From Jiangella gansuensis DSM 44835 (GTDB lineage Bacteria; Actinomycetota; Actinomycetes; Jiangellales; Jiangellaceae), in assembly GCF_000515395.1 (NCBI RefSeq), contig NZ_KI911782.1, positions 3,780,606 to 3,844,605 on the forward strand: DNA of 64,000 bases. Reading direction: 5' to 3'. Made by a program: the position numbers and the translations under genes. The notes below the pieces were generated by a model, which saw only the letters and a list, made by a program, of their open reading frames with translations, had not been told where the DNA came from and did no database searches. Shown here piece by piece: positions 36,804 through 39,404 of this stretch (position 1 is its first letter; each line of letters begins with the position of its first letter).

Positions 36804-36823
36804 GTCCCGAGGCTCTCACGCTC

Positions 36824-36883
36824 CCGGTGATCGACAGGGCGCTGCCACCCCTGGGCGGGCAGCGGCGCCCTCTCGATCACCGG
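36824..36883. terminator. Terminator-like hairpin with GGTGATCG outer stem
   Basis: CCGGTGATCGA/TCGATCACCGG-type outer arms flank a GC-rich inner stem (CAGGGCGCTGCC with GGCAGCGGCGCCCT). It lies between two minus-strand genes, downstream of the AbiEii-type gene's upstream neighbour. The outer stem is shared with the hairpin at 5892-5944. Confidence 0.6.
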
Positions 36884-36894
36884 AGGGGACCGGG

Positions 36895-37800: not shown

Positions 37801-38426
37801 AGCAGGACCTCCAGGGCGTGCCGGATGCTCGGAAGCGTCCGGGGGAAATGGCCGGCCATCGCCAGCAGCGCGCTCGGTTGCGACCCGCGCCGGCTCAGCC
37901 AGCGGCGCAGCGCTTCGTACGCCTCGTCCGAGCCGGTGAGGTGCCGCATCCGGAACGTGTCGACGATGGTTCTCTCCGCGATGTATAGGCCGAGGTCCAG
38001 TTGGCTGTCCACACGGTGCTTTATGCGGCCGACCTCGAACGTGCCGGCGGCGAAGGAGTGCCACGTCACCGGGCCGGTGGTGGCGGGGAACCGGCTGCCG
38101 CGCGGCAGCGCCAGATGCGGCGCTGCCGGGATGGCGTCGCTGAGGTCGTGCTCGACCAGCGCGCTGGTCAGGCACAGCGTCGCGCGCGGCGCCCGAGCGG
38201 CGACCTCGGTGAGCGTCGGATCGGCGAACTCGGCGTCGATGCGTCGGTAGAGGCCTCGGCCCAGTGGCTCGATGACGCCGACATCGCGCAGGCCGTATAG
38301 CCCGCGGTGGTCCAGCCCTGCCAGCCGGCCCTCGGTGTAGGTGAAGGTCGCGGGCAGGCGCCGCAGCGCTGCCTGTGCCCGCTCGGGGAGGCGGTCGGAG
38401 CGGTCGGCCGGCAGCTGGTTCGACAT
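37797..38426 (-). CDS. AbiEi-type antitoxin/transcriptional repressor
   Basis: The 209-residue protein starts at ATG 38426. Its N-terminal winged helix (RAQAALRRLPATFTYTEGRLAGLDHRGLYGLRDVGVIEPLGRGLYRR) is typical of type IV antitoxin AbiEi proteins. The C-terminal domain (LTSALVEHDLSDAIPAAPHLALPRGSRFP, RIVDTFRMRH-like segment) would counter the toxin and strengthen repression. It represses its own promoter in known systems by binding two inverted repeats. A matching 18-base inverted repeat begins right next to its start codon (38427-38473). Confidence 0.85.
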   Translation of the reverse strand: MSNQLPADRSDRLPERAQAALRRLPATFTYTEGRLAGLDHRGLYGLRDVGVIEPLGRGLYRRIDAEFADPTLTEVAARAPRATLCLTSALVEHDLSDAIPAAPHLALPRGSRFPATTGPVTWHSFAAGTFEVGRIKHRVDSQLDLGLYIAERTIVDTFRMRHLTGSDEAYEALRRWLSRRGSQPSALLAMAGHFPRTLPSIRHALEVLL

Positions 38427-38473
38427 GGGAGAAAGTGTAGACACCAATGCCACAAGTGTCGACGTTTTCTCCC
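38427..38473 (-). promoter_or_regulatory. AbiE operator/promoter with embedded -35 and -10, leaderless start
   Basis: Arms 38427-38444 and 38456-38473 match at 15 of 18 positions. On the minus strand, TCGACA (-35, 38457-38462) and TACACT (-10, 38434-38439) are 17 bases apart, one in each arm. The ATG is about 7 bases past the -10, so the transcript is probably leaderless and the repressor would cover the whole promoter. Confidence 0.65.
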
Positions 38474-38503
38474 GGCCATGGGTGGCGAGCGCCGGCGGAG
38501 GCG

Positions 38504-38980
38504 TCAGAGGGCGAGCTTCATGCCCTCGTGGCTGGCGACGAAACCGAGACGGCGGTAGAAGCGATGCGCGTCGACGCGGGTCTTGTCCGTCGTGAGCTGT
38601 ACGAGGGCGCAGCCGCGCTCGCGGGCCAGGTCGATCACCCAGGCCATGAGCGCGGCACCGACGCCGCCCCCGCGCCGGTCCGAGCGCACCCGGACCGCCT
38701 CGACGAGGCAGCGTTCCGCACCGTGCCGGCCCAGGCCCGGGATGAACGTGAGCTGCACGCAGGCCACCACCTCGCCGGCGTCGTCGCCGACGACGAGGAC
38801 GTTGCGCGGGTCGGCGTCGATGGTCGCGAACGCCCGCTCGTAGGCGTCGTCGACGGAGGTGTGTTCACGGCCGCGGCCCAGGACGTCGTCGGCGAGCAGA
38901 GCGACGATGGCGGGCAGATCGGCGCGCGTGGCTTCGCGGAAGACAACCGTGGACAGCGCGGAATCGGTCACGCGCCCCAC
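38504..38980 (-). CDS. GNAT family N-acetyltransferase
   Basis: The 158-residue protein has the GNAT fold: FREATRADLPAIVALLADD, a central strand VLVVGDDAGEVVACVQLTFIPGLGR, the acetyl-CoA loop VRVRSDRRGGGVGAALMAWVIDLARERG and the C-terminal RFYRRLGFVASHEGMKLAL. It transfers acetyl groups to an amine; the acceptor is unknown. No linked genes suggest one. Confidence 0.88.
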   Translation of the reverse strand: MGRVTDSALSTVVFREATRADLPAIVALLADDVLGRGREHTSVDDAYERAFATIDADPRNVLVVGDDAGEVVACVQLTFIPGLGRHGAERCLVEAVRVRSDRRGGGVGAALMAWVIDLARERGCALVQLTTDKTRVDAHRFYRRLGFVASHEGMKLAL

Positions 38981-38981
38981 T

Positions 38982-39404
38982 CTAGGTAGGCGGCGCCACC
39001 TGCTTGGCCTGGGTGAGGCGCCAGTGGTTGCCGAACGGGTCGCGGAAGGCCGCGTCGATGCCGTAGAAGCGCTCCGTCGGCTCCTCGATGAACTCCACGC
39101 CCTTCGCCTTCAGCTCGCGGTAGGTGGCCCAGCAGTCCTGCGTCGCGAACGCGCCGGGGCCCATGTAGCCCGTCGCGACGAGGGTGCGGATCTGCTCGGC
39201 CAGCTCGCCGTCCACGACCGGCGGGCCCGGGACCACGAGCATCAGCGGCACCTCGGGGTGCTCCGGCGGGTGGACGACGAACCAGTGGAAGCCGTCCTGG
39301 ACCTCGTCATAAGCGACCTGGAAGCCGAGGGTGTCGACGTAGAAGGCGCGCGCCTCGTCCATGTCCAGCACGTTCACGCACACCAGGGCGAAACCGGTGA
39401 TCAC
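38982..39404 (-). CDS. VOC family (glyoxalase-like) protein
   Basis: The 140-residue protein starts at GTG 39404, about nine bases after GAGG; GTG 39413 is possible but too close to it. It has the VOC beta-alpha-beta layout (LDMDEARAFYVDTLGFQVAYD and, in the second half, YRELKAKGVEFIEEPTERFYGIDAAFRDPFGNHWRLTQ). These metal-dependent proteins are isomerases, dioxygenases or resistance proteins. It lies downstream of an AraC regulator and an alpha/beta hydrolase, all on the minus strand. Confidence 0.85.
   Translation of the reverse strand: MITGFALVCVNVLDMDEARAFYVDTLGFQVAYDEVQDGFHWFVVHPPEHPEVPLMLVVPGPPVVDGELAEQIRTLVATGYMGPGAFATQDCWATYRELKAKGVEFIEEPTERFYGIDAAFRDPFGNHWRLTQAKQVAPPT

Follow-up and report, generated by a model that had tools for sequence, protein, structure and literature searches.

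A Predicted Leaderless Promoter at the Operator Edge of an AbiE Operon in Jiangella gansuensis

Results

The locus described here lies in a 64,000-nucleotide stretch of the genome of the soil actinobacterium Jiangella gansuensis DSM 44835 (contig NZ_KI911782.1), which we refer to as the window. On the minus strand, a gene for a GNAT protein (38980-38504) is followed by a palindrome and then by the genes abiEi and abiEii (Table 1), the second of which begins in a GTGA overlap (37800-37797) with the stop codon of the first. The AbiEi protein scores 17.8 bits against the Pfam model AbiEi_4, which is under the curated cut-off of 25, and it found no match in NCBIfam. Structure 6y8q, which we take to be that of AbiEi from S. 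agalactiae, was matched by a profile of 24 AbiEi relatives with an E-value of 7.9e-22; the single sequence reached just 0.01. Given an AbiEi-family antitoxin, an overlapping AbiEii toxin directly downstream and inverted repeats that overlap the promoter of the operon, the locus is, by its sequence, a type IV AbiE toxin-antitoxin operon in which AbiEii would act as the toxin. In anti-phage systems of this type the toxin inhibits growth, the antitoxin counteracts it although the two form no complex, and phage infection is aborted.

Table 1. Features of the abiE locus (positions in the window)
Feature	Position	Strand	Basis or remark
abiEi, AbiEi-family antitoxin/autorepressor, 209 aa	37797..38426	(-)	PADLOC AbiEi 6.2e-48
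abiEii, AbiEii nucleotidyltransferase-family toxin, 301 aa	36895..37800	(-)	Pfam PF08843 2.9e-37; PADLOC 3e-79
Operator palindrome, 47 bp	38427..38473	(-)	dyad axis 38450; outer edge is the base before the ATG
-35 element TCGACA	38457..38462	(-)	inside upstream arm; promoter scan
-10 element TACACT	38434..38439	(-)	inside downstream arm; promoter scan
abiEi ATG and predicted transcription start	38424..38426	(-)	predicted leader 0

The palindrome consists of two arms of 18 nt (38427-38444 and 38456-38473) of which 15 of 18 positions are paired (83%), separated by a loop of 11 nt. A preliminary description of this DNA had pointed out that the repeat contains TCGACA and TACACT 17 bp apart, with an ATG about seven bases further on. 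Both the coordinates and a promoter scan of positions 38380-39100 confirm this arrangement. TCGACA-17-TACACT, with 9 of 12 matches, is the sole promoter-like site in the scanned region (50 shuffles gave a mean of 0.0 sites, sd 0.2). The spacer measures 17 bp, the gap from TACACT to the ATG is 7 nt, and the end of the -10 element lies 16 bp from the dyad axis. Since TACACT agrees with TATAAT at only 4 of 6 positions and TCGACA with TTGACA at 5 of 6, the promoter may be weak. A terminator scan of the same region returned zero terminator-like sites. Between the end of the co-directional GNAT gene and the operator lie 30 bp, and read-through from this gene into abiEi is therefore possible.

The inverted repeat alone is unremarkable. 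In 60 dinucleotide shuffles of the window, comparable repeats (arms of 18 nt, at least 15 paired, loops of 0-30 nt) were found 7.35 times on average and up to 19 times, and therefore we rejected the repeat taken by itself as evidence. The real window contains many more such repeats than the shuffles, owing to several longer palindromes in it. What goes beyond chance is the combination of palindrome, promoter and abutting start codon, together with its conservation in relatives. The two arms are also the only half-sites without mismatch in the genome, a single contig of 5.59 Mb. Six further matches in the 5.59 Mb have two mismatches each, and a reversed control pattern gave two matches. As an intact half-site occurs nowhere else in the genome, the control exerted by AbiEi is most likely local and limited to repression of its own operon.

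A long palindrome lies directly 3' of the abiEii stop (36822-36886). Among the genome matches listed we found at least 21 further copies, with some matches on both strands, and the element recurs again in sampled stretches of the genome. We take it to be a dispersed REP-like hairpin element, which may act as a terminator. Two more palindrome families were recognized in the window by eye, as the pairs 375-440/20133-20198 and 4113-4178/14661-14726, and dispersed palindromes thus appear to be abundant in this genome.

We then consider the start of the abiEi message. With a TANNNT motif 7 nt before the ATG and a weak Shine-Dalgarno (SD) duplex of -2.8 kcal/mol at this codon, abiEi has the features of a leaderless gene, and its transcript most likely starts at the ATG. 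Three in-frame codons, GTG, TTG and GTG, precede the ATG by 18, 21 and 27 nt, respectively. The GTG at 27 nt has an SD duplex of -6.9 kcal/mol, compared with -2.8 at the ATG, with a G-rich stretch about 15 nt away. Transcription from 7 nt after TACACT would leave these upstream GTG codons outside the message; a read-through transcript from the GNAT gene would include them.

Leaderless initiation is not remarkable in itself. We sampled 464 kb of the genome, window included, and assigned to each ORF the 5'-most acceptable start, which is a crude rule. In 18 of 170 coding-like ORFs a TANNNT motif precedes the start by 6-8 nt (exactly 7 nt in nine, which is the mode), and any other gap from 0 to 40 nt was seen in 0 to 3 ORFs each. 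Across Actinobacteria, an average of about 19% of genes are leaderless (PMC3160421). In M. tuberculosis a quarter of the genes with a primary start are leaderless, and so are 32 of the 37 toxin-antitoxin pairs with a primary start (PMC3898074). The view in the preliminary description that a leaderless antitoxin mRNA would be unusual is supported neither by the genomic spacing nor by these literature figures. Its remaining interpretation holds up better: an AbiEi-type operator does span the whole promoter, and the transcript likely begins at the ATG.

An AbiEi match is present in 8 of 12 genomes of the genus (loci and genomes are given below by our handles L and G). In three congeneric loci, L003, L004 and L005 (AbiEi identities of 83, 73 and 74%), the operator is conserved and adjoins a GTG, an ATG and an ATG, respectively, with TACACT 7 nt before the start codon in each. 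A relative of AbiEi with 83% identity in Jiangella asiatica evidently corresponds to L003 in genome G008. The DNA footprint shared by the four operators ends at the start codon; the codons downstream and the DNA upstream diverge. All four operators have an in-frame RTG 18 nt upstream, and in L005 this codon is an ATG with a well-spaced GGAGG in front of it (-9.5 kcal/mol). A TNNACA-like -35 element was seen by eye in several relatives. The matching DNA block in G013 runs from window position 38477 to 36899 and comprises the operator and both genes, while that in G008 begins at 39403 and additionally includes the GNAT gene and the gene preceding it. A strict operator pattern was found in 1 of the 12 genus genomes, but this pattern is too exact, failing to match even the operator of the window, and the count is no guide to empty sites. 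In L009-L012 a strong operator adjoins an ATG, yet GACACT stands where TANNNT was expected. The homologues in the plasmid collection are distant (37 records, each <60% identity), and the phage collection yielded none at 1e-5.

Two AbiEi types, about 73% and about 40% identical to that of the window, occur in Jiangella relatives downstream of apparently the same gene, named RidA-like by eye (L004, L005, L009, L010, L011 and L012). This neighborhood suggests a single chromosomal hot spot. Immediately before the intact operator of the second type, L011 and L012 contain an apparently decayed copy of the window-type operator. The AbiEii protein of G006 (L005, 671-1501) has 276 residues compared with 301, with about 24 residues missing by eye from the second half, and may be an altered toxin.

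The three mismatches between the arms of the window operator all lie inside the -10 hexamer. For a wider comparison we hand-picked 18 related operators with the -10 element at about +16 from the axis, of which 15 were counted; L009-L012, L019 and L025 were left aside as they have no TANNNT at this place. In the 15 operators the pairs that involve the hexamer are mismatched in 28 of 90 cases, while positions 5-10 and 17-23 away from the axis have 34 mismatches in 195 (Fisher p 0.013), a contrast that vanishes (28/90 against 74/255) when distances 1-4, taken as loop and mismatched in 40 of 60 cases, are included. Pairing stops abruptly: at distance 23 one of the 15 operators is mismatched, and at distance 24, where zero-leader members have their start codon, nine are. 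Such a pattern would be expected of a symmetric site that has to accommodate a unidirectional promoter.

To place the operator within its family, we collected 107 AbiEi loci from the same phylum. Removal of 31 duplicate, partial or weak loci (L002, L014, L015, L030, L033, L063-L087 and L107) left 76, and 75 had a usable upstream region after L040 was dropped, because its match begins inside the gene. In 47 of the 75 loci there is an upstream palindrome that no more than one in 100 shuffles equalled. Twelve loci have no palindrome with a score of at least 8, which is a loose threshold, and the other 63 were used for a comparison of promoter registers. Measured from the palindrome axis, the end of TANNNT lies at +16 in 19 of these 63 loci, the window operator among them, at +4.5 to +6.5 in 14 and at +1 in 11; a random-axis control gave a mean of 2.66 loci per single offset and a maximum of 8 in 2000 draws. 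These counts do not down-weight related loci, and AT-rich genomes hold many TANNNT motifs. The offsets -5 (9 loci) and -16 (8 loci) are likewise prominent, probably due to TA-rich mirror motifs of the half-sites. With a stricter -10 definition the distribution changes to 9 loci at +5, 8 at +6, 7 at -16 and just 3 at +16.

Nine of the 19 loci in the +16 class have an in-frame ATG or GTG at a predicted leader of -1 to +2 nt. The predicted leader is exactly 0 in L001, L004, L016, L029, L032 and L039, and outside the genus a -10 element at +16 is combined with a predicted leader of 0-2 nt in L016, L020, L029, L032, L039, L041 and L043. L003, L005 and L042 also have the 7-nt gap, but they were not classed automatically because the best palindrome lies elsewhere or none reached a score of 8; for L003 and L005 the highest score went to a palindrome other than the operator. 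Longer leaders within the +16 class are predicted for L034 (3 nt), L055 (8 nt), L017 and L018 (11 nt), L053 and L054 (15-18 nt), L021 and L031 (22-23 nt) and L013 (28 nt, or 16 nt if a TTG is used); L103 has no listed start. The 11-nt leader behind a similar operator in L017/L018 indicates that leaderlessness is not required. In L019 an ATG abuts the operator in the absence of TANNNT, and the SD duplex is -6.4 kcal/mol.

The SD duplexes before the start range from -5.5 to -10.9 kcal/mol in 17 loci labelled leadered, and from -0.3 to -4.0 kcal/mol or weaker in 10 loci labelled leaderless. Judged from these predictions, starts without a leader occur again in further actinobacterial lineages; the remaining relatives are leadered, mostly with a Shine-Dalgarno sequence. 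On a quick tree of 38 of the 75 sequences (chosen by score and length limits, with labels set by hand), the leaderless label requires at least five changes, of which strongly supported branches force just one. The association between leaderless starts and register (9 of 19 loci at +16, 2 of 12 at +5.5) is not significant (Fisher p 0.13).

Three loci in this set have features of their own. L105 and L060, which are distant and have TATAAT near +5, list in-frame ATGs inside an operator arm; the arm may therefore encode the first residues of the antitoxin. L041 has a perfect palindrome (20/20) with TAGACT in both arms, so that this promoter could in principle fire both ways; its AbiEi frame has an internal stop.

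Discussion

We estimate a probability of about 0.7 that the palindrome is an autoregulated AbiE promoter with a leaderless transcript. In this model a sigma-70-type promoter, TCGACA-17-TACACT, would be written into the two arms of the 47-bp AbiEi operator. Transcription would begin at the downstream edge of the operator, on the first base of the abiEi ATG, and consequently the mRNA would be leaderless. AbiEi would occupy both half-sites and physically shut out RNA polymerase, which would keep expression of the bicistronic operon low, and AbiEii would be translated by coupling at the GTGA overlap.

The promoter and the operator could be real while the working transcript carries a leader, starting upstream by read-through from GNAT or at an unseen promoter and being translated from an upstream GTG or ATG. 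The co-directional GNAT gene so close to the operator, the in-frame GTG codons at 18 and 27 nt, the latter with the better SD duplex, the GGAGG before the upstream ATG in L005, and the leaders of related operons all speak for such a transcript. Nevertheless we consider it unlikely, because the promoter scan of 38380-39100 revealed no second promoter-like site, the SD duplex at the ATG falls outside the range of the 17 leadered loci, and the four-way footprint ends at the start codon, beyond which the next codons diverge. In L020, moreover, a stop codon overlapping the -10 element leaves the abutting ATG as the sole start before the conserved domain. That the inverted repeat works as an RNA hairpin instead, which terminates the GNAT transcript or hides the abiEi start, appears much less probable again. 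The RNA strand does fold (-23 kcal/mol, z -3.16), and this structure could influence read-through transcripts. However, we rejected the repeat as a terminator in view of the empty terminator scan of 38380-39100. All three arm mismatches fall in the -10 hexamer, and the operator travels with abiE operons despite differing upstream sequence, neither of which favors a role in RNA.

We attach slightly less weight still to the idea that a regulator other than AbiEi binds the operator, which we regard as very improbable. It draws on the observation that Rv1044 from M. tuberculosis failed to bind its own upstream region (PMC7319586). Against it stand the upstream palindromes in 47 of 75 abiEi loci, the confinement of intact half-sites to the window operator, and two AbiEi homologues that are proven autorepressors. 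Experiments on S. agalactiae AbiEi and on Rv2827c from M. tuberculosis established autorepression by way of inverted repeats over the promoter (PMC3985639, PMC7319586), and the operator-over-promoter mode is therefore already known. The preliminary description had an AbiEi dimer covering the promoter. The operator does span the promoter, but binding need not involve a preformed dimer; for S. agalactiae, two AbiEi monomers are described as binding with positive cooperativity (PMC7319586).

The closest comparison for the autoregulated, leaderless promoter proposed here is the abiE operon of S. agalactiae (PMC3985639). This operon is also bicistronic, with a 4-nt overlap between abiEi and abiEii, and AbiEi represses a promoter with 17-bp spacing by way of two inverted repeats across the -35 and -10 elements. 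The operators are similar in length (49 bp in S. agalactiae, 47 bp in the window). In contrast to the window operon, the mapped start in S. agalactiae lies 26 nt upstream of the ATG and the message contains a ribosome-binding site, and the -10 element ends 6 bp from the axis, as counted from the quoted sequence, instead of 16 bp (PMC3985639). The rv2827c-rv2826c operon of M. tuberculosis likewise encodes an AbiEi-family autorepressor, and its repeats straddle a predicted SigA promoter near the start codon; it differs in that it has four repeats of 23 bp, arranged as two pairs with gaps of 13 bp, and that cooperativity is negative, whereas the window has one pair (PMC7319586).

Leaderless toxin-antitoxin operons of M. 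tuberculosis share the missing leader, and TANNNT is the common -10 motif of mapped starts in this organism, but the available portions of these genome-wide reports do not single out AbiE-type operons (PMC3898074, PMC8485053). Rv1460 (SufR) at the suf operon is another actinobacterial repressor for which a leaderless transcript was suggested and binding to its own promoter was predicted, although it belongs to a different regulator family and operon (PMC6034842). In the parts of the literature accessible to our search we found no description of a leaderless operator-edge variant of AbiE.

The distance between -10 element and axis raises a more general question. This element ends about 5-6 bp from the axis in some distant relatives and 16 bp from it in the actinobacterial group of the window, and the two main registers would thus differ by about one helical turn. 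We put forward, as a tentative idea that we doubt more than we believe, that AbiE operators occur in discrete promoter registers about one helical turn apart, that the shifted register, by placing the start at the outer edge of the operator, reconciles an intact palindrome with a leaderless mRNA, and that the presence or absence of a short leader between the start codon and an operator that otherwise stays constant decides among relatives whether initiation is of the Shine-Dalgarno type or leaderless. The register comparison is just partly supported by the counts described above.

Conclusions

The abiE locus of J. gansuensis is a tidy AbiE autoregulatory promoter of known design, in what is predicted to be a leaderless operator-edge variant; it introduces no new principle. 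Taken by itself, the locus chiefly allows such a promoter to be annotated cleanly in Jiangella. With a single palindrome that would combine promoter and operator and also mark the 5' end of the message, it is also a compact test bed. The most interesting lead is the register comparison. If the comparisons of registers and leaders hold, AbiE would show a repressor site and a mode of translation initiation co-evolving, and the effect of leader loss on the dosage of antitoxin to toxin would be testable between relatives.
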